From Sarcina sp. DSM 11001 (GTDB lineage: Bacteria > Bacillota > Clostridia > Lachnospirales > Lachnospiraceae), in contig NZ_FNFZ01000002.1 in NCBI RefSeq assembly GCF_900101015.1, positions 27,221 to 91,220 of the forward strand: a stretch of 64,000 nucleotides of DNA, written 5' to 3'. A program made the position numbers and the translations under genes. Below the pieces are notes generated by a model. The model was not told the DNA's origin and ran no database searches. It was given only the letters and a program-made list of their open reading frames with translations. This document shows positions 1,615 to 54,872 of the stretch, one piece after another. Every line of letters starts with the position of its first letter. Positions within the stretch are counted from its first letter, which is position 1.

Positions 1615-4600
1615 ATGAAAGCATTACTCCGAAGAATCAGGCAGATATTAAGGGACCGTAGAGTGCGCCGCATTTTCACGAGATTTGTGGGCACAGTTGC
1701 GGCCATTGTTGTCTTTGTGACAACGTATGCTTTGGTATTACCGGCCATTACAATGGAGGCAGAGGCGCTGTGCGGCATCGAAGCTCACCAGCATGATGAC
1801 AGCTGCTACACGGAGAATCTGATCTGCGGTCAGGAAGAGTCCGAAGGACATCATCACACAGAAGACTGCTATACAGTGACTAAGGAACTGGAATGCCAGA
1901 TCCAGGAACATCAGCACTCCTTGGAAAACGGCTGTTTCGATGAAGAGGGCAATCTCGTGTGTGAGCAGGAAGAGCATACACATTCGGATTCCTGTTATAA
2001 AGAGCATCGGGAACTGACATGTGGGCTGGAGGAGTCTGAAGGGCACCATCACACGGATTCCTGTTATGAAAAGGTGCTGACCTGCGGAAAGGAAGTCCAC
2101 ACCCACTCGGCAGCGTGCTATAAAACAGATTTGAAAATCGAGTCTGCAGCTGTGGCTTCGACCGGAGTGACTAGTGCTGCTGCTGTCCCCGATCTTTTTA
2201 ACGAAGACATCTATTCGGAGGAGCCGGAGCATTCACAGGATGATCCCGCCGCAAACGAAGCTCTGGATGAACAGGATCAGACAGATGAGGATGAAGAGCA
2301 TACAGATAAAGAGCGTGCAGATGAAGATGCGGAAAACGGGGATGCCTATATCCCTGAAAAAGAAGAGCTGGATTTCAACACTGTTCTGAACAGCCGGACG
2401 GGCATTTACTACCATCACGTGGCGGAAGATGAGGAGATTGAGGACAGCTCCGCTATTTCCGACTGGGACAAGGCGGACGAGGACACAGAACTGAACCGCG
2501 CGGATCTCATCCGTATGTACCTCAGCTATACGCTCCCCAGGGATACTGTTAACGCGACCAATGACATTGCCAGATACCGCCTTCCCGATAGTCTTCACCT
2601 GACGGACGAGCAGGTCGACGCGATCAACGAGTGCGAAAACGGAATATCTTCCCAGTATATTGAATATGACAGTCTTGAGATCACAGATGTCGAGCGCCAC
2701 ACCGCTTACCTGGGACTGGAATCTGTAGAAGGCACCCGCCGCCCTGGTGAAGAGCCTGAGGAAGACGACCAGGAATATATCAGCGCCACAGTCAAAGCTG
2801 AAAAGATCTATGACGAGGAAACCGGTGAATACGAGGGAACTGATCTGATCTTCACTTTCAGTCCCTACACCGTCGAAAAAAACGCGCATGCCTATGACAA
2901 AAAAGGACAGCCCACCAGAGCCGGTGAAGAAGTGACCGGCTGGCTGACCCTCGACTTCAACATGGGCCAGATCGACTGGGCGGAGGACAACACTTCCGAG
3001 ATCATTTTTGCGGAAGAAGACCGGGAAAACAAAGTCTCTGAGATCAGCACTGTCCTTAAGCAGGCAGAGGATGATGATCTGGCAGCAGCTGGAATGACAG
3101 AGGCAGCTGCCGAAGACATGACTGCAGACGAGGATGCAGCGGATGCAGCGACAGAAACCGCTGCTGCGGATGAGACTGCGGAGATCGCAGCTCAGGATGC
3201 GACAGAGGAAGCCGCCGCAGCGGATGTGACTGCGGAGGAGACCGCTGCTGCAGACAATACTGTTGATAAAGCGGAAGAAGCAGGCACAGAGAAAACTGCT
3301 GCTGAAGCCCCCGATGATGAAAAGGATAAAAAGGAAGAGTCAGTGGCTGCCGGCTACCCTGCAGCTGTCTTTGACGACTCCATCACTGTCCGCTCCGGCC
3401 GCCTTGACAGCGACCTGGATGACACGGACATTCCGAAGAAAACCAAGATGACGGTCCACGTTGAGGCCGATGAAGGGACATTCCCTGAAGGTACCAGGAT
3501 GGTCCTCAGCGCCGTCGAAGACCTCGACGCCGTGGCCGAAGCAGTCGGTACTGCCATTGACGCAAAGACCCGCGGCTTCCAGGCTGTCGACATCACCTTC
3601 TATGACAAAGATCCTTCCGAAGAAGACGCGAAAGAGATTGAACCCCTGAAACCCATAAGGGTTTCCATTAAGAGCGACGAGATCAGGAAAGCTGCAGAGG
3701 ATTCCTCCACAGCTCCTGTTGTCGTGCACATCGAAGATGACAACACCGCTACGGAAGTTGAGGGCACTGCATCCAAAACTGACAGCGCCGCAATTGAGAT
3801 CGAGAAGCCCGGCGTGGAAGCGGAAGTGACTGCTCCCGGAAATGACAGCGCGAATAATGAGGACGAGAGTAAAGACGCCGCGAATAAAGCCGGAGACAAT
3901 AAAGACTCTGAGAATAAGGCCGCAGAGGATAAAGACAGGGAGGATGCGGCCAATGAAGATGCTGCCGACGACAGTACCGAAGGCGTAACTGGAACGAATG
4001 ATGCAGGTGAAGAGACAGATCCTGCTGCCGACGACAGTTCTGAAGGCGTGACCGGGACGGTTGATGCCGCAGCAGGCGACGCCGTGAGCTTTGAAGCGGG
4101 TTCCTTCTCCATCTATGCCGTGGTCTATACCGTAGACTTCCACTGGGAAGTGGATGGAAAATTATATGATTTTAGTATTCCCGGGGGTGGATTTGTCAGC
4201 CTTGAACACCTGGTTGAGGCACTGGGTATAGGCACAAGTGATAAAGAAAGCACAAGTGAACACGAGACAGCTGCCAATATTGAAGAAGCAGCAGAAACAG
4301 AAGATCACCCTGCGCCCTGTGACGAAGCCATCAAGCTGAACGAGGTAAAAATCAGTGACACTACAAGGAAATTTGTGGCGGATGTAGAGAGGGTAGAATT
4401 CTCAGTCCCGGAGCTGGTATGGGTTGGAAAGGCTGATTCGGACAGCACAGTCGGAAGACTCAAAGAAGCCAACGAACTGAAAGTAGAATACAGCGCGGAG
4501 CTTACAGAAAAAGAGATCGGGATGATCAATGCACAGACGGTAAAGGCCGGGGACTGGGCTTTGATCAGTTTGCAGCCGTTCACGAGTGAAGAGGCGCTGA

Positions 4601-7600
4601 CTGTGACTATGAAGGATGGTGAGACATTCACGATCCGTGTTACTGATGCGCAGATTAAGAAAACTGTAATTGACGCCAAAGGCGACACCTGGGTGATCAC
4701 TGTGACTTATGGAGAGGATGCGAAGATCCCGAATGGGGCAGAGCTGAAAGTCAGAGAAATCCTTTCGACCGATGAAGAGTATGAGTCTCTCTGTAATAGT
4801 GCGGCGACAGAAGCCTGCAGTGATGCGGGAGAGCAAGGCATCGACATGCCGATCCTTTCCGGTGCCCGTTTGTTTGATATTGAGATTCAAAGTGAAGAAG
4901 GTAAGGTTGAACCTTCTGCACCTGTTCAGGTGAGTATCCGTCTTCTTGGCACGGCCCCTGCGGACCATACGTCCGTGGTCCACTTCGAAGAAGATGGAGC
5001 AAGAGTGTTGACGGCTCAGAAATATGAAATTCAGATGCCTGAGACCCGTAAATCTAATGTTGAGGCACCTGTAGAAGCAGCAGATGAAACGCAGGGGTCT
5101 GCTGAGAACAGATCGAATGAGACAGATGCTACTGAGTTAAGTTTTCAGACGGATTCGTTTTCCGTTTACTCTGTGGTAAATGTAACAAATATGAGCAGTC
5201 TCGTTGGCAGCGACAAAAAGTTTGCTCTGGTTAGTGGTATTGCCCATGATCCGGGAGCAACTACGGGCTATTCGGAAACGTGGGGACGAGATTATTTTAC
5301 TCTTATCGTAAACGCTCATGCGTTATCGGATCAGTATGTTTATGATAATCAAAACAGAGTTGATGGTCTCCGGGTGGAACCTGTCCACGCCTATGAGGAT
5401 GGGAGCATTTCCTATATCGGCGGCAATCCGGCTCAGTGGCAGTTTGAGAGTGCAAGGAACGGAAAGTATTATCTGTGCGTCGATGGTAAATATCTGCAGA
5501 GATTTAACAAAGGCGAGAATAACAACTACGGCTGGGAAGCCCGACTTGTCGAGAATAAAAATAATGCAACGCAGCTCAGCATCACTGTCAATAGCGATGG
5601 AACGATATTGATTTATGATGATCTCGGTGGGCAGGGGCAGCAGTATTATCTGCACAACGAAGGACCCAGCCAAGGCAGCGAGTTTAATTCCCGCATCTTT
5701 AAATTTACAAATCAGAACGTCAATACAAACTCTGCGGCATACCGGTTCAGGGTTTGTGAGGAGTCTGATCAATTTGAAAGCTTTGCTGCACGTAAGGTTT
5801 CCGTGCAGAATCTTACGGTCAATGACAGTTTCCTGATCTACCGCAAGTTCGAGGACAGCCAGGGTAAAGAGCAGCTGTTCGCGCTTGCAAGCGACGGTAC
5901 TTTTGTACGTGTATATGACGGCGGTGATAGTGTCTACTGGCGTGAGACGGATAAAAACATCTACTGGAACTACAGGCTGGAAGGTAACTATTACACTATC
6001 TACTCTACTCTTCCGGGAACCGGCGAACCCGTTTACATCAATCCGATGTATTCGTCTGATCCTAAGCAGACAATCACAAGTACACCATCCGGTCTGACTC
6101 TTATCGGGAAAGATAATGGCGAGTACGGAACTGCGATCGAGAACTGGGATCAGACCGCATACGATTATGCTGGTCTGCATGTGACTGTCAACGCACAGGG
6201 AGAAGCAAGTTTATCTGCCGGTACCCGAGTCGGAGAAACGTCCGATGTATTCCTGTTCGCGGTTGCCAGCAGCATGCCCGGAGAGACGGCGGAAACGGTT
6301 GATACTGTGGACAGTGACAGCCTCGGTATCAAGATTACCATGTTTGACTATGGGAGAGCGAAGGGCAGTTATAGTGCCGGCGATAAACTATCTGAAATGA
6401 CAGCTGTGGCGGGCAGTGCTGAATATACCCCTCATGCTGCGCATCAGCTTGTCAAGGCCTACCTTGAAAACGGATTACCTTCCAGCAAAACAAACGGTGC
6501 GATGGAGGGATTATTTACAGAGGGCGGGAGTGCAGTTACTGCATATAAAGAAAATGTGAATCATCTCTTCCTTCAGAGTTATTATGACGAGAATGGCATG
6601 TTCCGTTATCGGTCAGAGGATAACTATGCTTATCTGTCTTATGATCCTGATACAGAAAAAATAACGGGTACTGACTTTACGGTTTATCGTCAGGCAGCTA
6701 CGCCGTACCCTTATGATTCCCAACCGGGTCATTCATATTATACGCATGGTCATTTTATGCCTTTTAATGACATTGATATGACCCAAAACGTTTCCCGTCT
6801 AATGAACCAATACGGGAATATGTACGATCTTGCCCATCCAAATGACATTATCGGAGAATTGCCTATTGGTGATGGTCGGACCTACGAGGATATCTATGCC
6901 ACACAGGGTATCCCCAACTTCTACACGGGAATGAAAATGGAAGCCAATTTTACCCAGCTCAAAGACGGTAAGCTGGAGAACGGCGATCCCATGGTTTTCA
7001 AATTCACCGGCGACGATGACATGTGGGTATATATTGACGGTGTGCTCGTGCTCGATATCGGTGGTATTCACGAGCCCCTGAGCGGGACCATCGATTTTTC
7101 TACCGGCAAAGTAAGCAATCCGTCCGGATCCAGTCTTGCCGGAGAGAAGACGCTGTACGATATTTTTATGGCGGTGAAGGAAGCAAATGGAACGCCGCAG
7201 GAAGTAAAGGACAAGATCAATTCCATTACCTGGAAGGATGTGGATGGAAATGGAAGGCCGGATACATTCGCAGACTACACCAATCACGACTTTAAAGCGT
7301 TCTATATGGAGCGTGGTGCAGGTGCATCCAACCTGGATATTCAATTTAACCTGAAGGTCATGCATCCGGATGAATTCGTTGTTACTAAACAGATTCCCGA
7401 CGGCGTTGATCCGCGGTTTGTCAACCAGGAGTACAAGTTCCAGGCGACCTTTAAGGACTACACAAATAACGACGAGATCAAACCGCTGTTCGTGGGGCAG
7501 AAATACGGTACACAGCAAGAGCTCATCGCCTGCACCAGCATCGTCTACAAGGACCGGAAGGATGAAAACGGCAATCCTGTCCCGGTAAATGTGGGTAACG

Positions 7601-10600
7601 ATGGTTGTTTCACGCTGAAAGCCGGCGAAGCCGCTGTGTTTAAGATGGCGGACAAAAAGCTGCAGTATACCGTTAAGGAAGTGGAAATCGACTCTGTTCA
7701 GAAGACTGAAAAGGTTGAAATCAATGGACAGGTAGTAACTATAGCGAATGGAACTGCGGAAGCCGCCTATGCCCGGGTACAGGATCGCAGCCAGCTCAAC
7801 TACAAGAACCACCCCTTCCTTCAGAACCTGAACATTATTAAACATCTCCTGCCTGAAGGCACCAAGGACGGGCCGGGCGATGTGTTCGAGTTCCGCGTGT
7901 ATTTGGAATCCACTGTAGAGGTGGAAGGCCAGCTTATGCAGCAACTGGTGCCTTACTCCTATGGGCCGTACTATGTCACCAAGATTGTTGACGGTCAGAC
8001 CCACTACTATACTTTGACCGGAACGAATAACGCGCCTGTGGATAAGGGAACGACTCCCGTGGTTTGCTCCACCACCGGCAGAAGCGGTTCGATAAACAGT
8101 ATTCCTCCCGAATTCACCGTTGAGATTCGTAACCTGGCGGTGGGTACACACTTCTACGTCGAAGAGCGACGTGATAATATTCCGTCAGGATTTGTTTTTG
8201 ATCATGAAGATTTGGTTGAAGGCACTTATGACGGTCAGACATTGGGCACTAATGAGGATATTATAAGTCGTATTATTGCGCGCGACGAAAAGGATCATCA
8301 GTCTTTTGACCCCGATACGGTCGGTAAGATTAAAAAAGGCGTGGACGCGCAATCCGAAGTGTTCAATAAGAAGGTCAGTGTCAATGTCCGGAAGCAGTGG
8401 CTCAAAATGAACGGGCAGCCTTATACACTTGAGCAGGCCCGTCAGCTTCCCGGCAGCCAGAGCGCGGTGATCACGGCGGAGCTCTGGAAGAAAAAAATCG
8501 CTGAGGAAACAAGCGGAGAGACAGATAACCCCGTCACTGTGACCTTTATGGTCAACACAACTGCGGATACAGAATATCGTCAGGTATCTGTTCCGGTTAC
8601 GATAAAGAATGGTTCAACACTGGAATTCTCTCTTGGCGCCAGAGGAACAAGCCAAGCCCAGGAGATCCATAGTGAACCTGAGTACACTATTTCACGCAGC
8701 AGCGTAACATCGAACCCGAAGATCCATTACTCCAATGGACGCCAGAAGGATAAGTGGAGCAAATATACGATCAGCGGGATTACTGAAGACACAAAAGTCT
8801 ATGCGACCTTCGATGCGGACAAGGTCGGAGATGACTTTGTCGGTCTTTACATCGCTTCGAAGGTGGATCCCGGTTCTTCTGAGACGCCTGTCGAGGAAAA
8901 GGTTGCTGATATCACCCTGAACGACGCCAATGATTGGCTGCAGCAGATCCCGAAGGAATCGGGTTATACCTATTTCCTGATGAACGTTGTTGAGACCGGA
9001 TTGGAGGGACATGCCCACGAGTATACCTTCATTGACTCTCCAACGGTTACCACAGATGCAGACGGGAATCTCATTCTTGCGGTCGCGAATAAGTATCGCG
9101 AACCTATCAACGTCACCGTTGAGAAAGTCTGGTCTCCTGCGCTGACAAGTGAAGAAGAAAGCGATGCACATGTAATCGTTGAGCTGCATCGTTATGCCAA
9201 AAAGACTAAAGGTCTTCTGGAAGTCGTACTCAAAGACAACTTTGGAGCTCCGATCGAGGGGGCCGTATTCAAGCTGTATAAAGACGGCGTTGAACAGGAA
9301 CAGACTTATACTACGGACGTTAACGGAAAAATAGCAGCCGGCAACCTGGAACCCGGGACATATAAGTTTAAACAGATCAGCACGCCGGAAGGCTACAGCA
9401 TGTCCGATTCTGCCCCGCAGACTGAAGATTTTGTGGTGGAGGATAACAAGACCGCTCCGCAGGAGATGCACTGCGAGCTCCAGAATCAGGCACTGGAGAC
9501 GAATGGTGTTGCAACGTTGACTCTGCTTGATAATAATGGTGCTCCTATCCAAGGCGCAAAGTATGAGCTGAGGAGGAAGGGAACGGAAGAGATTATTAAA
9601 CAGGGGCTTGTGACCGATGAAGATGGCAAAGTCACGGTCTCACAGCTTAAGGCGGGAACGTACTATTTCTTCGAAACAGAGCCGCCCGCAGACTACAACC
9701 TTCCCAATGAATGGCAGGATACTGAATTTACCGTGTTGGAACACCCTGGGATCGTACAGACTTTCAACATCAGCATGGTCAACAATCTGAAGGGAAAAGG
9801 CTACGTTGAGATTACCCTTACCGGTCCTGACGGACAACCGGTCAGTAATGCCACATTCGAGCTGTACAAGGGCAGTGAAAAACTGACGGAAAGGACTACT
9901 GGCAACGACGGCAAGCTGACTTTCGGTAATCCCGAGAGACTTGCCGCGGGCACTTATGTTGTAAAACAGATAAGCACGGACGCCAATCTGCTTCCGGCGA
10001 ATCAGCAGTCGTTCACGATCCAGGATAATGGAAATGCGAACCAGAAAAATGAGCTGACCTTTAGCAACTCATACAGGGGCATGGGTACTGCGACTGTAAC
10101 CTTGACCAGGAAAGACAACAATAATCCTATCAGCGGTGCAAAGTTTGAGTTGTACAAAGATAGTGAGTATTTTATGGAAAAGACCACCGACGAAAATGGT
10201 CAGCTGGTTTTCGGTTCTCCGGACAAGTTACCTGTTGGGAATTATTACATTAAACAGATTTCCACCGTAGATGGATTGGACCCTATAGTAAACAATTGGC
10301 CTTTCGAAATCCTGGAGAATGGTAATCCGAATCAGACGTATTCCTGGAATGTTCAGAATGAGGAAAATGCCGGGAATGTGACGATTAAACTGTGGAAGAA
10401 GGGGGGATTCGGACAATGGAATTGGTCGTGCTTGAATACTTATACAGATTTAAGGCCAGGGCGTACTTATTCGTTTACAGCTCAAATTAATCAAGGGTTT
10501 AATATAGAACATCTTTGGTGTTATCAGGATGAATCTGATCACATTAACGCGGATTCTATATCTAATGGTCAAGTGACAAATTTGAATCCTGCCGGATGGG

Positions 10601-12027: not shown

Positions 12028-12044
12028 CACAAGGTTAACAGAGA

Positions 12045-12076
12045 AGTCAGTCACTTCGGTGGCTGGCTTTTCTTTT
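12045..12076 (+). terminator. Terminator of G1
   Basis: Ten-base arms AGTCAGTCAC and GTGGCTGGCT (two G-U pairs in RNA) around a TTCG loop, followed by TTTCTTTT, 18 bases after the G1 stop. The TTCG-loop hairpin at 34601 is closely related. Confidence 0.8.
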
Positions 12077-12153
12077 GGGGATGGGTTAGCATAACCTAAC
12101 TGCCAGATATAAAATGACGCCGCCCGGGACTGTGCCGGACAGCGTCGGTGTGA

Positions 12154-14953
12154 TTATTTTGGTTCGTTTACTTTCTCCTGATAGAGTTTCATCAGCCATG
12201 CAACACAAGCTGCCTCGTCGGTCTCTTTGATCGGCATGCCGTATGCCTGCATAACCGCACGGTCATTGTTCATATGAGCTTTGCGGAGCTCAGGCGGCAT
12301 AAAAGTTGGATCGTACAAATCAGCCAAGCAAGAATTCGAATAAAGAAAGCGGGCATCAAGGATTCCCTGTGCAGTTTCTGCTATACGCTGCTTTTCCTTT
12401 TCTGCTGGCTGTGGCCATGGGAAATTATTGTACACAGAAGCCTGGTATCTGAAATCAGACTTTATTCTACCACAGACCACTCTAACCCAAGCCATATGAA
12501 CATTCGATGTCAAAATACCAAACTCATAGAGCCCCAGATCCGGAATAATAGTACATGCATCACCGGCTATTATTTCAGGCTGTATGAATCCAAATGGGAT
12601 ATATCGCCTTGTCTGTGAAGAATGCCTTGGAATCACCAAATATGTGGACTTGGGCTGGCGTATCTGGCAAAACAGATAAGGAAGATCAGCCTTTTTCTTT
12701 ACTCTGTCGATTTTACTTTCAGTTCTGAGTTGCCGGACACGTTCTATTCGCTCTTTTACTTCTGGAATATTTCTGATTTCGGACAAGTCGGCCTTATCCA
12801 GCCAAAGACAATATCGGGAGTACTGGCCGATCCGATCATGTAGAAATTCGTGAGCGCCAATGAAGGGTTTAATGTATTTAGCCAGGACAGGATACTTCGA
12901 AACCAGCGTTTCTCTTTCCTCTGCATCAAGGATGAAATTCCCATAATCCATTGGTTGAGAGCCTGTGGTCATTTTTGGCAACGAGCCCTGCGGCTTGTTT
13001 GTACGACTTTCAAGCCATACATCAGGAGCAGCAATGATATAAGGGTTGATATGATCAACTTCCGTCACATCCGAACCATCAAATAGCTTTTTAGGCTTCC
13101 GGACAGATCCGTATGTGAAACCTACAATAACACAGTGGACATGGGCTTTAGAACTTGCTTCGCTGTCCCAGATAAACGTCGAATAGGCGAATTGGATCTC
13201 CGCTTTATGATCGACAACGAGCTGTTTCCAGAAAGCGGGTACAGATTCTCCTTGGCAAATAGAGTTTGTAGAAACAAAGGCTGCAGTAATGTGACTGACA
13301 GCTGTCTCCATATACTCAATTGCTTTTTGATACCAGCAAATGACATAGTCAAGTTTGGATTCAGTTTCCCCTTTTCCAAACACGATAGAGATATCTTCTT
13401 TTTGTGCATTTGATCTGAGGTTGTGTCCTACAAAAGGAGGATTCCCCATGATATAGTTCAGCTTGCTCTTGTCCACCACATCATTCCAGTCTATCCGCAG
13501 GGCATTGCCTTCGACGATATACGCGTTCGTCTTCAGTGGCAGGAAATCCAGCTGCATGTGGACAATGTCCTCTGTCTCTTTTAGCATCTGGTTCTCGGCG
13601 ATCCACAGTGCTGTCCGGGCGACCGTGACAGCGAAATCGTTGATCTCAATGCCGTAGAACTGGCTGATGGAAACCTTGATCGGAGAGAAGCCTTCATAGC
13701 CAAAGGTGATCTGGCCGTGGGTCAGCAGGCGAAGGATCTCGTTCTCCAGCTTCCGAAGCTGTAAGTACGATTCCGTGAGGAAATTTCCGCTGCCTGCGCT
13801 CGGATCGAGGAACGACAGGGATGCCAGCTTGTCCTGCAGGGCATGGAGCTTTTTCTCCTGCGTCCGCAGCACAGAGATGTTTTTGATCTCCTCAAATTCC
13901 GCCTTCAGATCGTCGAGGAAAAGCGGGTCGATGACTTTGTGAATGTTCTCGATTGACGTGTAGTGCATACCACCGGAACGCCGGGTCTCCGGGTTCAATG
14001 TGCTCTCAAACACCGCGCCGAAGATGGTCGGGCTGATTTCCGACCAGTCAAAATCATCACTGGCCTTACGGAGAAGCAGATCCATGATTTCATCAGTGAA
14101 GGGCGGGATCTCGATATCGTCGCCGTCGAACAGGCCGCCGTTGACATACGGGAATGCTGCCAGCATCTGATCGTCGTCCGCAAGATACGGATCACGGTCT
14201 TCCGGTTTCTGGTTCAGTACGCGGAAAAGATCCCGCAGCCCCTTACGGGCGTGTGCGGCATCGAACTGCTGCATATAGTCATGGAACATGCTCTTCCTGC
14301 CAAAGACTGATGCGTCCTCTGCGTAGAGGCAGAAGACGATTCGGACGCAGAGCTTGTTCAGGGACTTCAGTGTCTCCTCATTCTCCGGATCTTTACTGCT
14401 TCAGGAAGGCATCATAAAGTTGACCAACAAGCTCACCGGCCTGCAGGGAGATCTACATCTCGTCGGTAACTTTCCTGACCTCTTTGTTTACGAGGAAATC
14501 CAGCATGTGATATTTTGCAGGGAGATCGGTCAGTGTGATCTTGACCGGATCGGGCTTTACAGCATCGCGGTCATAGATCCAGATCTCCTTGAAATTGGAT
14601 GTGATGATCCAGCGGGCACACTCACTGAAGGGCAGATAGTTATCATAGTATTTGGCTTGCTCATACGGCGTCATGCCGTTGTGTCCGGCCTGCGGTTTAT
14701 CAAGTGCGATGCCCAGAGATTTCTGTTCGATCAGGACATGGGTCTCCGGGATATAGACATCAATTCTTTTTGTATTGCCGTCGCCGCCGACAACCTTCTT
14801 TTCAAAATCCACGCGTTCTGTCACGCGGTCAAACCCGAGGATGTTGGTCAGGATCTCGATCCAGTAGGAGCGGGCATCCTCATCCTCGCGGCCCTTGCCG
14901 TTCCATCGATAGAAAAACTGGCGGGCAGCTTCCCTTTGTTGTGCATCTGTCAT
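12154..14953 (-). pseudogene. MmeI-like restriction enzyme / adenine DNA methyltransferase, disrupted
   Basis: The two halves of one gene are still clear. The N-terminal part (14953-14453, 166 residues) resembles the MmeI N-terminal nuclease domain, with RIDVYI followed by IEQK (a D...ExK pattern). The C-terminal part (14289-12154, 711 residues) carries the helical spacer, SAM motif FLDPSAGSGNF, catalytic NPPF in GNPPFVGH, and the target-recognition region. Together about 930 residues, normal for this family. Between them the frame is broken twice: TAG directly after VTDEM (where family members seem to have Glu), then a stop and frame change near 14393-14400, after which SKDPENEETLKSLNKLC reads on into the second half. 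MmeI-type enzymes both methylate adenine and cut DNA. Two independent lesions argue for loss of function, though the long C-terminal frame remains clean, so decay is recent. An XRE gene lies 17 bases upstream, and GGAGGG precedes the start. Confidence 0.82.
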
Positions 14954-14970
14954 TGTGGCTTTCCCTCCGA

Positions 14971-34586: not shown

Positions 34587-34600
34587 CATGATTTATGGAG

Positions 34601-34634
34601 AGGCCAGTTCACTTCGGTGGACTGGCCTTTTATC
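34601..34634 (+). terminator. TTCG-loop terminator after the orphan tail
   Basis: Arms AGGCCAGTTCAC and GTGGACTGGCCT pair at all 12 positions (one G-U) around TTCG, then TTTTAT. It now serves G3. Its likeness to the hairpin after G1 shows it came with a class A 3' end. Confidence 0.85.
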
Positions 34635-36598: not shown

Positions 36599-36717
36599 CC
36601 CCAACCTCCTGTGCTGTTGAAGCATTCTGTGACTTTTCTTTTTCGTTAACGAATATATTTTAACAGTCATGGCTTGACGACGCAATTAATATACTTTCCA
36701 GATACCTGAAAAAGAGC

Positions 36718-36876
36718 AATGTGTATTTCCACATCAGGGGTGGGTCAGTTTTCCCTGACAATCAACACGCCCTCCCGAACACCGGCGGTCCGGGAACAAG
36801 GCTCTTTACGATCCTTGGATCGATTCTGATCGCGGGAACAGGTCTGCTGCTGTGGAGGAGATGGAAATTTGTATAA
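36718..36876 (+). pseudogene. Second orphan LPNTG sorting-signal tail (class A)
   Basis: The frame reads ALPNTGGPGTRLFTILGSIL, then a hydrophobic stretch, WRRWKFV and TAA at 36874-36876. The frame is open back to about 36700 but has no start, no ribosome site and no domain. It carries a complete LPxTG, membrane segment and basic tail, closest to the G1, G5 and 34494 tails. It marks the 3' end of a lost giant gene between the AAA gene and G4. Confidence 0.85.
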
Positions 36877-45356: not shown

Positions 45357-45409
45357 TTTTTTGCAGAACAGTGTCAGGTATCGACAGCAATAGTAAGCGA
45401 TAGTAATAA

Positions 45410-45681: not shown

Positions 45682-45807
45682 CATTTGGTCATACCGCCGA
45701 GTCTGGATATGACCATGATAAGGACATCATAGATAACAAGAAACCAGGTAAGATGCAGCCATATGACCTGCGGCGAAATACTAATTAAGTTTGGAGGCAT
45801 CACAATA

Positions 45808-46893
45808 ATGTCAAGGCAAATGATAGTGCCGGAGCACTTGAAAAAAACGGAAGAACTGAAACGGTCAGAACGCAATATACAGTCGGAAAGTCAGAAGTGC
45901 CTGGTCAGGGCAAAGTACCGGACACAGCAAAATGTTTCGACCCGGTCCGGCCAGCCTCTGCAATCGAAAAAGACTTCCAGAATCATATGCGGAGCTCGTT
46001 TCGGTCATCTCACTGTTCTTGAACAGACAGAAGAACGAAAATGCGGATACGTGGTATGGCGCTGCCGCTGCGATTGCGGAAATGAATATGGGGCGGTAAG
46101 CCGTGAACTGAGAAGCGGCAGGGCAGTTTCCTGTAAGGAGCCTTCCTGTGAATATTACAGAGAAGCCTTGAATAAACGCTACAGCCGGGAAGACTTCACA
46201 GGACGGCGGTTCGGGAAGCTGCTGGTACTTGGCCTGGCTGCAGAAGATATTACTTCACCATCTGGAAAGCCTGTCCAGAGCAGAATCAAGCGGGATGCAA
46301 ACGGCCGGGTCCTCTGGAACTGCAAGTGTGACTGTGGAAATACCGTAGAGGCCACGAGTTCGGAACTTAAATCAGGTAATCGAAAGAGCTGCGGCTGTCT
46401 TTCACGCCCGCCCCTGTACGATTGGGTAGGAAAACGATTCGGCAGGCTGACGGTAACAGCCTATGATGGAAAGCGAAACGGTTATCATTACTGGAAATGT
46501 CTTTGTGACTGCGGAAATGAAACTGTCGTTGTCCAGACGAGCCTTCTGCGCGGACACACCTCCAGCTGCGGATGTCTCGGCAGGTCGCTGAAAGACCGCC
46601 GGACTTTGGTTGACGGAACCTGCGTAGAGATCCTGAGATCTGCTCTTTTGAAGGGGACGATCCCACAGAATAACAGTTCCGGAGTCCGGGGGGTGTACTG
46701 GCAGAAAAGACAGCAGCGCTGGGTCGCGCAGATCATGTTTAAAGGAAAGATGATCTACCTGGGAAGCTACAATACCATCGGGGAAGCAACGATCGCCCGT
46801 AAACGCGGCGAACAGAAATACTTTGGAGAGTTCCTCGAAGAGTACGATGCCAGGACTGCAGAGGAAATGCAGCAAACAGGTACCGGGGATTAA
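45808..46893 (+). CDS. AP2-domain protein with three CxCDCG zinc-ribbon-like repeats, copy 2 (intact)
   Basis: A 361-residue predicted DNA-binding protein. Three repeats share the pattern RFGxLTV or RFGKLLV...WxCxCDCGN...L..G...SC: one with WRCRCDCGNEY, one with WNCKCDCGNTV, one with WKCLCDCGNET, the last two ending SCGC. The spaced cysteines suggest metal-binding ribbons. A C-terminal AP2-type domain follows (NNSSGVRGVYWQKRQQRWVA then YLGSYNTIGEATIARKRGE), the fold used by plant AP2/ERF factors and some phage HNH proteins to bind DNA. There is no HNH nuclease motif. The start at 45808 has GGAGG 10 bases upstream and matches copy 1; an ATG 15 codons earlier lacks support. G5 begins 50 bases downstream with no terminator between, so co-transcription is likely. 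A role as regulator of the giant gene is inference from this repeated linkage; being a mobile-element relic is the alternative. Confidence 0.85.
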   Translation: MSRQMIVPEHLKKTEELKRSERNIQSESQKCLVRAKYRTQQNVSTRSGQPLQSKKTSRIICGARFGHLTVLEQTEERKCGYVVWRCRCDCGNEYGAVSRELRSGRAVSCKEPSCEYYREALNKRYSREDFTGRRFGKLLVLGLAAEDITSPSGKPVQSRIKRDANGRVLWNCKCDCGNTVEATSSELKSGNRKSCGCLSRPPLYDWVGKRFGRLTVTAYDGKRNGYHYWKCLCDCGNETVVVQTSLLRGHTSSCGCLGRSLKDRRTLVDGTCVEILRSALLKGTIPQNNSSGVRGVYWQKRQQRWVAQIMFKGKMIYLGSYNTIGEATIARKRGEQKYFGEFLEEYDARTAEEMQQTGTGD

Positions 46894-46943
46894 CGGCAGA
46901 CATCAAACAACATATGTTTTAACAGAAAGAAGCGCAAGTAAAT

Positions 46944-49900
46944 ATGAGAGCATTACTTCGAAGGATCAGACAGATATTGAGGGACCGCAAAACGCGCCGC
47001 ATTTTTACCAGACTTGTGAGCACGGTTGCGGCCATTGTTGTCTTTGTGACAACGTATGCTTTAGTATTACCGGCCATTACTATGGAGGCAGAGGCACAGT
47101 GCGGCATAGAAGCCCACCAGCATGATGACAGTTGTTATGAAGATGTGCTTGTCTGTGACATTCCGGAGAGCTCCGGGCACCATCATGACGAGTCCTGCTA
47201 CAGTGTGGATCTGCAGTTGATTTGCCGGATTGACGAACACCAGCATGATGCCGGCTGTTATGACGAGAATGGCAAGTTGACCTGTGGAAAGGCCGAACAT
47301 GTCCACAGCGAAGAGAATGGCTGCTACAAAGAAGTCCATGACCTTGTGTGCGGCCAGGAGGAGAACGCCGGACACAAGCATGATGACAGCTGCTATAAGA
47401 AGGTGCTGACATGCGGGAAGGAAGTGCATACCCACAGTCAGGCCTGTTATCGTTCTGATGATGCAGAAATAAACACGGAGAGTGCGGCAGTCAGCAGTAC
47501 GGGTTCAGCGGCGTCCATAGAGACAAACGCGTCTTCTGCGTCGACCGAAACAGTCGGCAGGGAGGGGGCGGGCGCATCAGCTTCCACAGCAGAAACGGAT
47601 ATTGAAAATATAGATAATACAGGTTATACAGATAGTACAGGTGCCGTAAATTCCGGGTCTTCTGCAGCATCCGGATCTTCTGAAGGTTCCGGGAGTTCTA
47701 CAGCCTCCGGGAAGACTACAAATGATGAAGCATCTGATGAAGCATCTGCTTTATTTACTTCATCTACTACATCCTCTGCATCCGGCACATCCACAGTCGT
47801 GGGCACTGCCTCAGGAGATGCATATGTTCCTGTGCTGGATTCTCTGGATTTCGACCGGATCCTCACAGACAGCACCGGCCTCTACTATTTTCACGCCAAA
47901 GACGGAGAAACTGTTCCTGAGAATTCCGTGGATATAACGGACTGGAAGCCCCTGGATGAAGATACCGTTTTAGCTCCGGCAGATATCATCCGGGTCTATT
48001 TGGCGTACTCCATTCCTGCAGGGGGCCTCAATGACACAAACGCCGCAGCCCGTTACCGCCTGCCTTCGAACATCCATCTTTCAGACAGTCAGATGGAGTC
48101 TATCAATTCCAACGTAAACGGCATCTCGAACCAGTATGTCAACATGGACACACTGGAGATCACGGATCCCGTCAAATACAGCCAGACTCTTGGCGTGGAA
48201 GCTATTGAAGGAACCCGCAAGCCTTCCGATAACTTTGAAGACTATTTCGCAAAGCACAAGGAGTCGGACGGGCAGGAGTACATTTCTGCGACCGTAAAAG
48301 TCGAAGATGTCTATGATACAGACGATTTCGATGCAGCAAAGAACGGGACCAGAACCAGGTTGGGAACTGACCTCGTTTTTACCTTCACTCCCTACTCTGT
48401 TCGGAAAAACCAGCACACCTATGACAGTGCCGGAAAACCCACCAGTGCCGGACAGGAGATCCAGGGCTGGATGACCTTTGATCTCAGAACCGACCAGATT
48501 GATTTTGAGACCATTGATGTAAAATCAAAGAAAAATAAGGATTCGGAGCAGAGCAAAGATGATCAGGCCGAGACGGATCGAAGCGAGACTGATGGAGCCA
48601 AGGCTGATCGAACTAAGGCTGGTTCAACCGGAACTGATCCAGTCAAAACTGATTTAGCTAAGACTGATCTCAGCGAAAAAGAGACTGTAGAGAAAGAGGC
48701 AACTATCGTCTTTGTTCCGAAAACCAGTAAGTCACAGTCGGGATTAGATATAGACGAGATCAGCAAGACCCTTCATCTGCGGGAAAGCGCTGCAGGTTCT
48801 GTAACTGCTTCCGATGGCAGAACAGAAGAAGCAGATAAAAAATATGATTCAGATAAAGGGACAGAATCAGAGGAAAAATCAGATTCAGATAAAGACGTAA
48901 ATCCGGATACAGCAGGGATAGGTGACAGGGCGGAGAAACTGCCTTTGCGTTACCCTGCCCTGACATTCCGGGATTCCATCACAGCTTCCATGGGAGCTTT
49001 GTCCACAGATACAGAAAACGGACAAACGAACTCGATTCCGGAAGAGACCGAACTGACTGTCCATGTGGAGGCAGACGAAGGAACCTTCCCGGAAGGGACC
49101 ACCATGAAACTCTCCACCGTTGAAGACATGGGCACCGTCGCCTCCGCTGTCGAAGAAGCCGTGACCGCTGACGATGCAGTCAGTAGTAAAACGCGTGGCT
49201 TCCACGCCGTGGACATCAGCTTCTGGAACACGGAAGGCTCCGAGATTGAACCCCTCAAACCCATCAGGGTCTCTATAAAGAGCGAAAGCATCAAACAGGC
49301 TGTCGAGGATAACTCTACGGCTCCGGTTGTTGTACATGTAACTGATTCCGTGACGGATAAGACCCCTGCTGGCAAGACAGATGAAGCCGAGACAGAGCAT
49401 TCACGGGTAATGAACAAGGAAACAAATAGAGGATCGGCAGAGGAAAAAAGAGAAACGGAAGAGGATACGGAGACCGAAGAAACCATAGACGAGGAGGGGG
49501 ACAGCAAGACTCCTTCTGCGACGATCGTAGAAACTGAAAAGCAGATTTCAACTGAAAATAGTAAAAAGGACGATACTGACACCATTACATTTGAAACAGG
49601 AACCTTCTCTGTCTACGCTATTGTGTACACAGTGGATTTCAACTGGCAAGTAAATGGGAAAATGTATGAATTTTCTATACCAGGGGGCGGATTTGTAAGT
49701 TTTTCAAAACTTATGGAAGTCCTCGGTGTAGCAGAAAACAACACGCAGAGTGACTCCGGGAAAAAGTCTGCAGGAGCCCGGGAAGAGGAGAATATGCCGG
49801 TTACATCTGCGCTGACACAGGACGACCTGCAGATAAGCGAAGAGACAAAAGAATTTGTCGCAGACGTGGATAAAGTTGAGTTCTCCAATTCGGATCTGGT

Positions 49901-52900
49901 ATGGGTTGGGAAGGTTGACAAAGAGAGCACAGTCGGCCTTCTGAAGAAAGCAAACAAACTGGACCCAGAATACAGCGCAGAACTGACAGAAGAACAGATT
50001 GCGGAGATTAATTCGCAGACGGCAGCCGCGGGCGATTGGGTCCTGATATCTTTAAAACCGTTTTTGAGCGAAGAAAGCCTGACGGTATATATGAAGGACG
50101 GTGAGATATTCACAATCAGTGTCACCGATGCACAGATTAAAAAGACTGTAATAAGTGCGAGAGGAGACACCTATGAGATCACTGTCACATATGGAGAAGA
50201 CGCGCAGATTCCGAAAGGAGCTGAACTGAAGGTCAGGGAAATCACTGAAAAAGACAGTCAGTATGAGGAACTCAGGAAGAAAGCTGATCGTGCTTACGAA
50301 GGTAAACAGGGCTCAGCTCCTGACAGCCTTGCTTTCTTTGATATTGCTATCATGGATGGAAATGTAGAAATTGAGCCGGCAGACGGCAGCACTGTTGCCG
50401 TGGAAGTCCGTATGCTCAAGGAACTTGCGCAAAAAATGCTGAGCAATGATAACGATGAGGATCAGTTGGAGTCTTCCTCCAATGGAAACGTGCCGGATGA
50501 ATTCAAAGACGAGGTCTTTTTGGAAGGATCGGGCGTCTGGCTGAATGGTGTCCCCGTTTCTCAACTGTCTGCATCAGAAATTAAAACTGAGAATGATGGC
50601 TCGGTGGCAGATCAAGTACCACAGGATGTTTTTTCAATCATTCACTACGATGAGACAAATGAGACATCGTTCGTGAGAGATGTCAAAAATGATTTAGAAG
50701 AAAAGCCGGGTCTGACCCTGTCATTCTATACAGACTCCTTCTCAGTTTATTGCTTTGGTTCTTATTATGGTGATTACACAAATCCGAATAGTGTTAATGC
50801 TATTCCAGATACACTCTATATCGGCGAGACTATGCAATTCCAAGGATATGATGCAAAAAACTATTTGGTGTCAAATGTAACTAATGAATGCATAGATCTG
50901 AGTGAACGTGGTGACAATCAGCATAGGGTGCTTTCAATCATTAATGAAGGTACTTTTACCCTCCAACACACAACGTATCCCAGAGCGACTAAAACATTTA
51001 CTGTTAAAAGCAGAAAGACAACGCCGTATTCAAATACCATTGATACGGTCAATAATAGTGATATCGGAATCACTATGAGTCTGTTTGATTATGACCTTGA
51101 CAATCAGCTGAATGAGCTTTGGTGCCGAACGTATGATGGCCAATGGAGCACTGTCAGAGATTATTATATGAAACATGGTATCAATAATGGCCACGTCCTG
51201 AAATTCTGGGCAGGTGGACCTACCTATACCAGTGCGGCAAACCATCCCGAATACAATGCATGGCTCGGTGACGAACTCGGAAAGACGATTGTGTCGACTG
51301 ACATAAATAGCAAGGGTTATCCACAGACAACAAGTGGAGAGTCACTGGAGTATTTGTTCGAAAAGAAAGATGGTACAGATAAGAAATATTACCCGGCTAA
51401 TAAACTGTTCTCCGAAGAAAATGGCTATTATGTATATAACAGTGGTATGACTTCGGACGGAGGAGCCGGACATTACGCTTATTACAATAAAGATACGAAG
51501 GAATTCGAAGTATACGACAAAACATATTATTACACAAAGGATGGGAAGCAGTTCCCGATCGGTTTCTTCCCGTTTTCTCAGCTTGATGAAGACGCGGTCA
51601 AAAACGGATTTCTGAGTTCTAACCAGTATCCGAACCATCATTTTGGGATGTCCATGGACGTGGAATTTGACATCCCGGAGGACAAGCTTGATCCGAAAGA
51701 CAATCACATTACCTTTGAATTCTCTGGTGATGATGATATGTGGGTCTTTGTTGACGGGAAACTTGTTCTGGATATCGGAGGTATCCACCAGCCTATCGGC
51801 GGAAAGATTGACTTTACGACAGGTGAAGTTACATACCAGGACAAGAATGGCGGTACTCTCATAGACAATGCATACAGCCCTGACCTGGACAACCTGATCG
51901 GGGATCGAAATGTAGCCGTCAATTCGTTTGGAACGCATAAGCTGCAGGTGTTCTATATGGAGCGTGGCGGCGGTGACTCCAACTGCATGATCGAGTTTAA
52001 CACAATTCCATATAAAAGGATAAAATTCAATAAGATTGATGCGGATAACAACAGGATTCCCGGCGCAGAGTTTAAACTCTATAAGGATGAGCAATGTACC
52101 CAGCCTCTCATGATCCCCAGATCAAAGATTGAAGGCGGTCATATGGTGAACTACTATGAGGAAGCGACCTCCATTTCAAATAGCAGTGGTGAGGTTATCT
52201 TCGACAAGATTCCCATCGGCACTTATTATATGAAGGAGACAAGCGCTCCCACGGGATATGACCCGGACGGAAAGGTGTACACTGCCGTAGTTACGGCATC
52301 CCGTGTCGGGGATCCGGCCGATGACAATTATGCGACGATCTATTGGAAGAACAAAGACCATCTGATTGGAAACGGTGTCATCAACTACAAGCAGCGCCCG
52401 CTGCAGGTTACTAAGAAATGGGTAAAGGCCGGAACGACCGACGAGGCTCAGTGGCCGGAAGGATGTCAGATCAGTTATAAAGTCATCAGGCATGTGTATC
52501 TGGAAACCGACGATGGTTTGAAGGAGATTCCCGATACGTCAGCTGTTATATTCACAGCTGAAGACGACGCGCTTCTGACGAAGACGCATGACTCCCATAT
52601 TATAGAGAACCTTTCCCAGGTTGGGAAATGGAAATCTCCGCTTGCTATAACTGTGGAAATGCAGGCTTTGGGCATTGAATCGAACAAAGAGTATCCGGTG
52701 ACATACAAATATACGGTTGAAGAAAATCCGGCGGGGTCCGTTCTGCCGGCGGGCTCTCCGTATGTACTGCTGCCGGTGCAGGCTGAGATGACAGAGAATA
52801 CAGACGTCACGGTCAATAATGAGACGGTACATGGCATCAAGGGCCTCCTGACCAATGAGATCACTGAGCTGTCTGTGCTGAAGAAATGGTCGGATGATAA

Positions 52901-54872
52901 TAAGAATCATCCCAATGACAAGGTGACTGTTCAGCTGTATCGTGTGAGCGTGGAAAATGATACTCCTCCTATTCACGATGATCCTGCAGATGAAAAGATT
53001 TCAATCCTTGTAAATACACGGTGGCTGTATGAAAACGGAACCAGTGCTGACCTGAAAAACATCCCGAAATCCGGGAAAATCGTCGCACAGATCTCTGACG
53101 GAGAGAACAGCTGGACAGTGGAACTTAATCCGGACAACAACTGGGCCGCTACAAAATCAGACCTGCCTAAGAAGGGTGAGGACGGGAAGAATATCACCTA
53201 CACAGTGACATATCTTCAGCAGCAGAGCGGCGGATTCGGCGGAGTAAATGTACAGCGTGTTGTTGTGACACAGCCGTCCGCAGTTGTCGGCGCAAACGGT
53301 AAGGTCACCCTGGAGGCAACAGTAAAGAAACCTGATCCGGTAAATACGACCATGGCTGTTCCGTTTGACGTCACCTGGGTAAACGACAAAGGCGAAAGCG
53401 TTACTCCGCCTGATAATGGAGAGATTACCGCTGTGGTGAAAGACGCTGATGGAGTTACTGTAGCCACAGTGGTACTGAAAAAGTCAAATAACTGGGCATA
53501 CACGCAGACGCTGCCTTGTATCAAGGATGATGAAACTGTCCAGTACACCGTCGAGTATTCGGGCAAAGGGGACTATGTGACCGGAGCCGATGGAACGAGA
53601 AGCTTTTCAGGGCAGGGAAGCGCTGCTCATGCCGTTGGACAGATTACGATACCAGAGGTTTCCGAGGGGAAGATGGCGCTGCAGGTAGTGGCAAACGGGA
53701 TCAAAGCCACCGGAAATGACCAATGGATGATCCAGATAAATCAAAGCGTCCACAGGGTCGACCAAAATGGTAATGACATCTGGGACAAGAACCAGTACAG
53801 TTTCCCGGATGGTATTCTGAATGATTCAACCACAAGCAGCACGATCACGGAAATGAACGTAAAGGATTCGGACAATCAGACAATTCGCTACAAACTGCAT
53901 GTGCAGGCGGAGCACATTACAAGCGGAACCATCAGTGTGGTTAATCCGAATGGAAATGTGATTAAGTCGCAGAACTTCACTGATGGATGGACTGGCGATC
54001 TGTATTTTAACGCTCAGCCCGGCACATTTACGGTCCGGATCAATGGGGAGAATGCAGCAAAATCCAGGAAGACGGCAGTTCGAAAAATGAATGCAGCCCC
54101 TTTGAAAGCAGGGGGAGACCAGAAGACATTTACAGATGAAATCAGCCATTCCGGTCTCATTCTTCCGGCAGATGCAGATCCCGTAGGTGAACCGGTCGAG
54201 CTGAACAGCGGGAATGAGTGGGAATTTCAGTGGCAAAACCTTCCCGTAAAGGACAGTGAAGGAAATACTTATTATTACTATTTGAAAGAGGTCTCTGCCA
54301 CAACCTCTGGAATCGTCTATGAACTTGGAGCAGTTTATGAATACGATAACTACTCCGGGGAAAGTGGAAGAATACGTGAACTGACAATTACGAATACGCC
54401 AATAATTATTAAATCAGATGTCCAGATTAAAAAGGTGGATGATGATGAAACACTTTTGTCCAATGTTCCTTTTACACTCTGGCAGAAGGGAGGAACCGGC
54501 AGTTCAGGCGGAGAATATATCAAAGTGGAAGGCTATACCGATGTAAAAACAGAGAATGGGATCCTTACATTCGAAGATTTACTTCCAGGTGATTACAAGA
54601 TCACCGAAGGAACGCCGCTTCCCGGGTATTTGGATTTTTCAGAAGAGATTCCATTTACGTTGAGTGTAGATGGAAAACTTACAGGATTTGAGAATACTGA
54701 ACTTGTAAAACTCAATGAGGAGGATGGTACATTTATTTTTACCATTATAAACCAGAAAGGCGTAGAACTTCCTTCCACCGGCGGGCCCGGAACAAGGCTC
54801 TTCACGATCCTTGGGTCGGTCATGATCTGTCTGGCCGGTGTGCTGCTGTGGAGGCGGCAGAATCTTGTTTAG
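46944..54872 (+). CDS. G5: giant LPxTG surface protein (class A), fibro-slime, SpaA and CnaB domains
   Basis: A 2642-residue wall-anchored protein and the closest relative of G1 at both ends. Order: signal region MRALLRRIRQILRDRK to 52; six His/Cys units (53-168); Ser/Thr-rich stretch (about 175-290); conserved domain (293-523); Asp/Thr/Lys-rich linker; second conserved domain with VEADEGTFPEG (704-801); junction FSVYAIVYTVDFNWQVNGK (888); further conserved domain (960-1070). The core is a fibro-slime-like domain (about 1375-1690, GDDDMWVFVDG at 1595). A SpaA domain (1692-1790), CnaB-like domains (from about 1818 and about 1975), a long beta-rich region, a last SpaA domain (about 2491-2600) and LPSTG at 2609 follow. 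The leader is nearly the same as that of G1 for about 60 bases up to the start. It lies 50 bases after the intact AP2 gene. Predicted adhesin; ligand unknown. Confidence 0.9.
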   Translation: MRALLRRIRQILRDRKTRRIFTRLVSTVAAIVVFVTTYALVLPAITMEAEAQCGIEAHQHDDSCYEDVLVCDIPESSGHHHDESCYSVDLQLICRIDEHQHDAGCYDENGKLTCGKAEHVHSEENGCYKEVHDLVCGQEENAGHKHDDSCYKKVLTCGKEVHTHSQACYRSDDAEINTESAAVSSTGSAASIETNASSASTETVGREGAGASASTAETDIENIDNTGYTDSTGAVNSGSSAASGSSEGSGSSTASGKTTNDEASDEASALFTSSTTSSASGTSTVVGTASGDAYVPVLDSLDFDRILTDSTGLYYFHAKDGETVPENSVDITDWKPLDEDTVLAPADIIRVYLAYSIPAGGLNDTNAAARYRLPSNIHLSDSQMESINSNVNGISNQYVNMDTLEITDPVKYSQTLGVEAIEGTRKPSDNFEDYFAKHKESDGQEYISATVKVEDVYDTDDFDAAKNGTRTRLGTDLVFTFTPYSVRKNQHTYDSAGKPTSAGQEIQGWMTFDLRTDQIDFETIDVKSKKNKDSEQSKDDQAETDRSETDGAKADRTKAGSTGTDPVKTDLAKTDLSEKETVEKEATIVFVPKTSKSQSGLDIDEISKTLHLRESAAGSVTASDGRTEEADKKYDSDKGTESEEKSDSDKDVNPDTAGIGDRAEKLPLRYPALTFRDSITASMGALSTDTENGQTNSIPEETELTVHVEADEGTFPEGTTMKLSTVEDMGTVASAVEEAVTADDAVSSKTRGFHAVDISFWNTEGSEIEPLKPIRVSIKSESIKQAVEDNSTAPVVVHVTDSVTDKTPAGKTDEAETEHSRVMNKETNRGSAEEKRETEEDTETEETIDEEGDSKTPSATIVETEKQISTENSKKDDTDTITFETGTFSVYAIVYTVDFNWQVNGKMYEFSIPGGGFVSFSKLMEVLGVAENNTQSDSGKKSAGAREEENMPVTSALTQDDLQISEETKEFVADVDKVEFSNSDLVWVGKVDKESTVGLLKKANKLDPEYSAELTEEQIAEINSQTAAAGDWVLISLKPFLSEESLTVYMKDGEIFTISVTDAQIKKTVISARGDTYEITVTYGEDAQIPKGAELKVREITEKDSQYEELRKKADRAYEGKQGSAPDSLAFFDIAIMDGNVEIEPADGSTVAVEVRMLKELAQKMLSNDNDEDQLESSSNGNVPDEFKDEVFLEGSGVWLNGVPVSQLSASEIKTENDGSVADQVPQDVFSIIHYDETNETSFVRDVKNDLEEKPGLTLSFYTDSFSVYCFGSYYGDYTNPNSVNAIPDTLYIGETMQFQGYDAKNYLVSNVTNECIDLSERGDNQHRVLSIINEGTFTLQHTTYPRATKTFTVKSRKTTPYSNTIDTVNNSDIGITMSLFDYDLDNQLNELWCRTYDGQWSTVRDYYMKHGINNGHVLKFWAGGPTYTSAANHPEYNAWLGDELGKTIVSTDINSKGYPQTTSGESLEYLFEKKDGTDKKYYPANKLFSEENGYYVYNSGMTSDGGAGHYAYYNKDTKEFEVYDKTYYYTKDGKQFPIGFFPFSQLDEDAVKNGFLSSNQYPNHHFGMSMDVEFDIPEDKLDPKDNHITFEFSGDDDMWVFVDGKLVLDIGGIHQPIGGKIDFTTGEVTYQDKNGGTLIDNAYSPDLDNLIGDRNVAVNSFGTHKLQVFYMERGGGDSNCMIEFNTIPYKRIKFNKIDADNNRIPGAEFKLYKDEQCTQPLMIPRSKIEGGHMVNYYEEATSISNSSGEVIFDKIPIGTYYMKETSAPTGYDPDGKVYTAVVTASRVGDPADDNYATIYWKNKDHLIGNGVINYKQRPLQVTKKWVKAGTTDEAQWPEGCQISYKVIRHVYLETDDGLKEIPDTSAVIFTAEDDALLTKTHDSHIIENLSQVGKWKSPLAITVEMQALGIESNKEYPVTYKYTVEENPAGSVLPAGSPYVLLPVQAEMTENTDVTVNNETVHGIKGLLTNEITELSVLKKWSDDNKNHPNDKVTVQLYRVSVENDTPPIHDDPADEKISILVNTRWLYENGTSADLKNIPKSGKIVAQISDGENSWTVELNPDNNWAATKSDLPKKGEDGKNITYTVTYLQQQSGGFGGVNVQRVVVTQPSAVVGANGKVTLEATVKKPDPVNTTMAVPFDVTWVNDKGESVTPPDNGEITAVVKDADGVTVATVVLKKSNNWAYTQTLPCIKDDETVQYTVEYSGKGDYVTGADGTRSFSGQGSAAHAVGQITIPEVSEGKMALQVVANGIKATGNDQWMIQINQSVHRVDQNGNDIWDKNQYSFPDGILNDSTTSSTITEMNVKDSDNQTIRYKLHVQAEHITSGTISVVNPNGNVIKSQNFTDGWTGDLYFNAQPGTFTVRINGENAAKSRKTAVRKMNAAPLKAGGDQKTFTDEISHSGLILPADADPVGEPVELNSGNEWEFQWQNLPVKDSEGNTYYYYLKEVSATTSGIVYELGAVYEYDNYSGESGRIRELTITNTPIIIKSDVQIKKVDDDETLLSNVPFTLWQKGGTGSSGGEYIKVEGYTDVKTENGILTFEDLLPGDYKITEGTPLPGYLDFSEEIPFTLSVDGKLTGFENTELVKLNEEDGTFIFTIINQKGVELPSTGGPGTRLFTILGSVMICLAGVLLWRRQNLV

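Follow-up and report, generated by a model that had tools for sequence, protein, structure and literature searches.

How can neighbouring genes for giant surface proteins keep the same two ends while differing in between? The question is raised by a 64,000-nt stretch of the 4.15 Mb draft genome of Sarcina sp. DSM 11001 (hereafter the window; C36:27221-91220), in which, according to a preliminary description of the DNA, five giant + strand genes of 2598-3470 codons fill about 44 kb. A reading-frame check bore this out, the five frames being uninterrupted and amounting to 44.3 kb in sum. Positions below are those of the window unless a contig (C) is named; other genomes are given as G with three digits.

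1615..12027, + strand: giant A, 3470 aa, with leader, six CxxxxHxHxxxCY-type units, N-module, fibro-slime core, SpaA and SdrD_B stalk, and LPNTG
15863..23659, + strand: giant B, 2598 aa, with a weak InlB-type repeat below cut-off, one SpaA, and LPATG
24467..34489, + strand: giant C, 3340 aa from ATG, with VWA_2, DUF7604, DUF7601, SpaA, and LPSTG
37281..45356, + strand: giant D, 2691 aa, with a weak PA14-like stretch below cut-off, SpaA, and LPHTG
46944..54872, + strand: giant E, 2642 aa, with fibro-slime, SpaA, Cna_B, and LPSTG; a mosaic

The listed start of giant C is a TTG at 24380 (3369 aa), the ATG at 24467 (3340 aa) being a possible alternative. The genome holds ten intact giants, namely A-E on C36 and one each on C48 (G48), C74, C14, C41 (J41), and C61 (K61); because C74 and C14 are short contigs, neighbours of their giants may be missing. 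The term "dedicated locus" used for the array in the preliminary description is too strong: half of the ten intact giants are found outside C36, and ends like those in the array recur in some of these, for example in G48. Directly upstream of the window lies a sixth giant, F (C36:13205-22988), whose frame is broken within the first 170-225 codons, and upstream there is also a relic, R (C36:23440-24842), cut short beside a DDE transposase gene. The transposase gene is flanked by two 95-bp repeats that are 100% identical (C36:24617-24912 / 27116-27315).

The front is common to A-E and consists of a leader of ~47 residues with the motif TTYALVLPAIT or close to it, three to six CxxxxHxHxxxCY-type units followed by an acidic linker, and an N-module of ~1000 residues. 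In an all-against-all alignment, the five proteins matched one another by BLASTP at E ~1e-80 to 0, far beyond chance, over up to ~1470 aa; the N-modules are mostly 34-45% alike, indicating that the giant duplications are old. The leader and Cys/His repeats matched no Pfam family at E 0.001 (A-E) and no NCBIfam family (A, B, and E), and among solved structures the N-domain profile gave one chance-level match (E 0.34), the leader profile none, and giant C none. We may speculate that the Cys/His repeats bind metal or form disulfides. The proteins end in LPxTGGxGT-type signals, which exceed the Pfam cut-off in A, B, and E and are recognised in C and D by motif (LPSTG or LPHTG, a hydrophobic stretch, and a basic tail), the profile score for D being E 0.11. 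The shared N-terminal plan with an LPxTG end, as described earlier, is therefore present in all five. Between these ends, SpaA is over cut-off in 5/5 giants and Cna_B in giant E only (in A it is below), fibro-slime (by NCBIfam, applied to A, B, and E) in A and E, and VWA_2 in C; B has a DxSxS-like motif (D-T-S-R-S) in a stretch that is VWA-like by eye only, and PA14 stays below cut-off in giants D (E 0.0056) and E (E 0.00058). No toxin family was matched in A-E in Pfam at E 0.001.

The interiors were examined by sliding comparison of the array giants against 23 other giants, in which the best partner changed along a single protein. The different cores reported previously were recovered, with little or no match among these 23 for aa 1400-2400 of B and aa 1800-2400 of E; in a wider comparison, the B core had relatives at 30-41%, and aa 1750-2350 of E had none. 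Since the cores differ, a recent whole-gene duplication was rejected. Giant E is nearest in turn to A (residues 0-200, 69%), B (200-600, 59-71%), and G48 (600-1000, 49-66%); giant C is nearest to G042:C24_642 over aa 1000-2600 (49-77%) and to G044:C36_535 over its last 770 residues (aa 2600-3374, 47-80%). In giant F, aa 100-500 are nearest to G033:C130_29651 (72-77%, versus 51-67% for G042), whereas aa 1300-2100 and 2400-3100 are 77-93% like G042:C24_18351, to which the intervening foreign stretch, aa 2100-2300, is only 24-48% alike; the front part of F is, however, largely G042-like as well (51-76%), which counts against a mosaic reading of this giant. A division of this kind was also seen with a giant of Eubacterium sp. 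UBA4343 in the following feature.

4615..11215, + strand: core of A, aa ~1000-3200, 73% identical to the UBA4343 giant

Identity between these two giants is 0.73 over aa 1000-3190, 0.40 over aa 1-900, and 27% from aa 3200 on. Differences at 4-fold sites amount to 397/741 in the core and 86/121 in the first 900 aa; for reference genes, as a gauge of possible lateral transfer of the core, they are 103/179 (rpoB), 59/98 (glgP, short stretch), and 152/232 (glgP, longer stretch), so that the divergence of the A core is near that of rpoB and the short glgP stretch and below that of the longer one (Fisher p 0.0014). The F core differs from G042 at 215/565 4-fold sites and is less diverged than glgP (70/139) or the r7 transporter (99/184), which, with two reference genes to rest on, hints at lateral transfer of this core. 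A 26-row tree built on the first N-domain grouped the UBA4343 giant with G044:C56 (99/97), B with E (98/96), and three G043 giants together (100/99), and placed F among G033 and G043 rows (99/98). Forcing A together with UBA4343 was rejected (AU test, p 0.00012), whereas forcing F together with its core partner G042 was not (p 0.128). Collectively, front, middle, and end of the giants have had discordant histories.

The front ends themselves point to exchange within the genome. The likeness between the A and E regions takes in a pair of upstream genes and, past ~250 nt unique to the A side, extends from 50 nt ahead of the ATG through codon 65.

211..1311, + strand: paralogue of the AP2/zinc-ribbon-like gene at 45763-46893, lying upstream of A and interrupted by two TAG stops
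45763..46893, + strand: AP2/zinc-ribbon-like gene directly before E, intact; AP2 E 4e-7, just under the Pfam cut-off
1565..1808, + strand: 5' arm of A, from ~50 nt ahead of the ATG through codon 65, 88% identical in DNA to the E arm
46893..47137, + strand: 5' arm of E, pairing with the A arm (88%) and with G48 (81-82%)

The two AP2/zinc-ribbon-like genes are 78% identical in amino acids and 81.8% in DNA over 1155 bp. As a constant partner of giants, this gene was rejected, there being two copies in the own genome and no match to the query in the relatives' stretches tested. After codon 65, the identity between A and E falls sharply from 88% to ~57%; the arms have a dS of 0.40 and differ at 6/24 4-fold sites, versus 112/174 further on. 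For a wider test, 61 frames were gathered, of which 47 had a leader and entered the leader test, the rest being without the part or a match; the sorting-signal test comprised 50 frames (shorter pilin-like proteins included), the N-module test 39, and the core test 36. By DNA, the nearest neighbour of 20 of the 47 leaders, in six genomes, lay in the same genome, versus 11.5% by shuffling (0/5000 shuffles), and by protein this held for 17/47. The corresponding values were marginal for N-modules (10/39, expected 13%, p 0.045), 2/36 for cores (expected 14.5%), and 3/50 for sorting signals, taken as control (expected 11%). Against an exchange model stands the fact that 27/47 leaders are closest to one from a different genome. 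The divergence of leaders at 4-fold sites is 65.1% inside a genome and 69.9% across genomes (1/2000 shuffles as low), and that of sorting signals 58.3% and 59.3% (561/2000 as low). The leader effect is small overall, with ~24 sites per close pair, and is carried by few such pairs, namely A/E (6/24), E/G48 (7/23), three G043 pairs, and G042:C13. The values for A/E (0.25) and E/G48 (0.30) lie below those of glgP between the own genome and four relatives (0.35-0.50), and A/G48 (10/23) is no closer than reference genes between species. In the adjacent pair of G042:C13, aa 1-500 are 66-91% alike and aa 700-2500 are 14-31% alike.

A second conserved arm was found at the 3' end, where displaced copies also occur.

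11923..12090, + strand: 3' arm (tail) of A, sorting signal and terminator-like hairpin; five further giants, mostly unlike in their cores, have nearly the same sequence
34500..34631, + strand: displaced old 3' arm behind C, with a remnant sorting signal at 34500-34580 (E 2.1e-11) and a UUCG terminator-like hairpin at 34598-34631 (z -5.5)
36772..36870, + strand: orphan sorting signal before D, within a 70-codon frame

The tail of ~165 nt is common to six giants of three genomes, namely A and G48 of the own genome, two of G033, and two of G044; a seventh giant (G042:C13) has the hairpin part only. Relative to the stop codon, identity among the six is 0.25-0.30 before -150, 0.48 from -150 to -102, 0.83-0.97 from -102 to +33, and 0.87 up to +63, and then drops to 0.36. 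Nevertheless, 15 of the 21 pairs among the seven hairpin-bearing giants have no core match at E 1e-6. The hairpin, a 15-bp stem with a UUCG loop, folds far better than shuffled sequences (z -5.1), and its 32-nt pattern (up to 3 mismatches) occurs seven times in 62 genomes, in four of them, every time directly after a giant gene; the reversed pattern, as control, occurs in none of the 62. In the own genome, two of the ten intact giants (A and G48) carry this common tail, and the others have other 3' ends. Ten nucleotides behind the stop of giant C (34489), a remnant sorting signal of another type is followed by a related hairpin; we take this remnant for an old tail pushed aside. Such fossil sorting signals lie behind 4 of the 41 frames of at least 1000 codons, four of which had <300 bases downstream, namely behind own C, J41, G043:C19_55, and, weakly (E 2e-4), G044:C52; searching the reverse frames gave nothing at E<0.9. 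The orphan signal before D is likely a relic of a lost giant end. With the broken F, relic R, and these orphan and displaced signals, the earlier mention of relics of at least two more giants holds.

An exchange of interiors is indicated at one slot, next to the gene below.

12154..14289, - strand: MmeI-type restriction-methylase gene, 711 codons versus 936 in the G018 counterpart; marker of a slot also present in G018:C42

Sequence matching G018:C42 comprises the last part of A, beginning with the sorting signal, the intergenic DNA, and the MmeI-type gene, with identities of 76% over 404 bp and 88% over 1568 bp. Compared with A, the giant in the G018 slot is at the usual paralogue level in its first 1400 residues (33-65%), falls to 17-31% in residues 1400-2600 when the alignment is forced, and returns to 68% at the end; BLAST between the two interiors found the SpaA stalk repeats only (E ~1e-4). 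Thus, with a common 3' flank and cores that have no BLAST match except SpaA repeats, different interiors occupy one slot in two species. The upstream flanks of the two giants gave no match.

We consider it probable that recombination between the conserved ends swaps the interiors of these sortase-anchored giant adhesins. The giants would be sandwiches: at the 5' end a conserved arm made up of ribosome site, leader, Cys/His repeats, and N-module; inside, an exchangeable part with a head of PA14/fibro-slime-like or VWA type and a SpaA/Cna_B stalk; and at the 3' end an arm of sorting signal and terminator, common to a subset of them. Homologous recombination at the arms would move kilobase interiors among giants, both within the genome and between relatives, and gene conversion would homogenise the leaders inside a genome. 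The products would be secreted by the leader and anchored by a sortase encoded elsewhere, each giant presumably displaying a different binding head for plant fibre, mucus, or other cells. A more specific form of this proposal, in which interiors of several kilobases, bordered on one side by a leader arm homogenised per genome and on the other by a portable sorting-signal/terminator arm of ~165 nt, are exchanged between genes and across species in a cassette pool, and displaced tails record the swaps, seems to us evenly poised between right and wrong. The preliminary description had taken the array for a diversifying adhesin locus, a reading that is supported in part; diversification on an evolutionary scale is backed by the mosaics, the slot, the leaders, the tail, and the fossils, while adhesion is predicted from domain names.

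Could the same pattern be left by ordinary old paralogues, arisen by tandem duplication, with fast core divergence, a leader and sorting signal kept by constraint, and no exchange? Functional constraint on the leader and sorting signal and the mostly 34-45% alike N-modules agree with such a history, which we nonetheless hold to be unlikely: cores are closer across species than front ends, A with UBA4343 is rejected in the N-domain tree, non-coding tails are near-identical across species, one slot holds different cores, and old tails lie displaced. These observations contradict it unless the mosaic junctions are assembly artefacts.

Another reading takes the array as a system of active antigenic or phase variation, in which expression is limited to one or few giants at a time and changes through recombination or linker frame breaks. 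The array layout would suit it, as would the breaks within or next to the linker that follows the Cys/His repeats, seen in F (C36:13205-13900), R (C36:23440-23880), and one G033:C130 relic (~137 kb), that is, in 3/6 broken giants looked at, and the leader-only and end-only giant fragments found repeatedly. However, the arms of A and E agree at 88% and have no exact match longer than 38 nt, no intact giant lacks a start codon of its own, and no slippage repeat is established at F, where, as elsewhere, the breaks may be plain decay, a hotspot, or sequencing errors. Switching by inverted repeats was rejected, C36:10-86 kb having no opposite-strand self-match >90 bp at E 1e-8, a threshold that leaves room for shorter repeats. 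On balance, active switching appears improbable.

As to anchoring, the four sortase matches of the genome are all off C36, on C61, C32, and C48, two of them beside the K61 giant and a pilin-like gene. The array giants thus look like solo fibrillar adhesins served by a sortase in trans. That they are instead tip subunits of polymerised, sortase-assembled pili is hardly probable, for although VWA and SpaA domains occur in pilus tips, and C61 combines K61, which is related to the array giants, with two sortases and a pilin-like LPSTGGIG protein, C36 has no sortase match and C36:1-110000 no sorting-signal or pilin-like frame >400 codons other than the giants. The pilus-like locus (C61:23.8-35.0 kb) comprises the 2213-codon K61 with the leader motif, the 560-codon LPSTGGIG protein, and the two sortases; pairs of a giant and an LPSTGGIG protein also occur in G018, G033, and G043.

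The distribution among relatives was compared with one genome per species, most of them draft assemblies or MAGs. The N-terminal profile matched 30/62 genus genomes (9/26 good ones) and 11/90 family genomes, own included, and the own genome tops both sets with 15 matches, sometimes several per gene. Relatives' stretches were chosen from the profile matches, a subset of the 30 matching genomes being followed and nine stretches of G004, G007, G010, G039, G054, and G057 left out. Smaller tandem groups of giants were found in G043:C17, G033:C130, G044:C36, G042:C24, and G042:C13. The same five orthologues, which the preliminary description had named as a refuting outcome if found in distant species, were not seen; counterparts of the A and C cores lie in different genomes and in other combinations. 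Of the best 80 of 166 relatives, most are MAGs labelled as Lachnospiraceae, Oscillospiraceae, or other Clostridia; many come from the guts of goat, sheep, deer, or cattle or from RUG assemblies (presumably rumen), and two of the 80 are isolates, Faecalicatena contorta ET55 and Lachnoclostridium sp. Marseille-P6806. A gene pair to the right of the array is ~85% conserved in G042, G033, G025, and G039. On its array side, no giant lies within 8.6 kb (G042), 13 kb (G033), or 8.5 kb (G025), the distance in the own genome being 7.3 kb, and G039 offers <3 kb, too little to tell. These pairs without a giant in G042, G033, and G025 indicate that the array site is not fixed.

Several known systems resemble parts of this arrangement. 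The sapA array of Campylobacter fetus consists of paralogues with conserved 5' ends and a divergent remainder; unlike it, the present array has sortase-anchored giants, no inversion was found, and the arms are far from identical (best pair 88%). Fibrillar adhesins, of which the richest proteomes have about ten in the passages of Monzon et al. (2021, PMC8286594; 2022, PMC9210967), likewise have a very long chain, an adhesive head (VWA, PA14), a SpaA/Cna_B stalk, and a sortase anchor, whereas arrays with a common front module or common tails do not appear in those passages; the terms "Lachnospir" and "paralog" are absent from the main texts of both papers. In the Csh family, as described by Barringer et al. 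(2023, PMC10952558), adhesive domains are similarly recombined into many architectures, but there one domain fold is followed across bacteria, whereas here whole interiors seem exchanged between conserved ends of one gene family. The closest operating analogy is that of CDI/Rhs loci, which, in the relevant passages of PMC4927057, have a large conserved front, a replaceable part, and an old 3' end as downstream fossil; the giants match no toxin family, change in the middle, and have a sorting signal as 3' end, so that they may work like such replacement loci without being members. The displaced-end logic of CDI/Rhs toxins would thereby be extended to Gram-positive adhesins. No literature titles on such arrays in this lineage were found by a search whose coverage excludes most subscription journals. 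The proposed exchange offers a testable model of how a commensal may renew its surface, the secretion and anchoring ends being kept and the part in between swapped; the arms could serve as sequence markers to find and date swaps in strain collections, and the interiors are candidate binders of plant fibre, mucus, or other gut microbes.

Further observations concern the neighbouring genes. Rfam gave no match, and neither did a plasmid comparison with one flank gene. The MmeI-type gene region (12154-14997, - strand) is spread over more than one frame, 13432-14997 being 88% like the G018 DNA and other parts matching poorly, which suggests a patchwork there too. Between C and D lies the following gene.

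34925..36685, - strand: AAA-ATPase_like / PDDEXK_9 gene

It is one of three AAA-ATPase_like genes in or beside the array, with those at 55585-57300 (+) and 58209-59429 (-), and two of the three have PDDEXK_9; upstream of the G018:C42 giant, another AAA-ATPase_like frame was seen by eye. Directly behind E, a short fn3-containing frame (54979-55461) is possibly the remnant of a larger surface protein.
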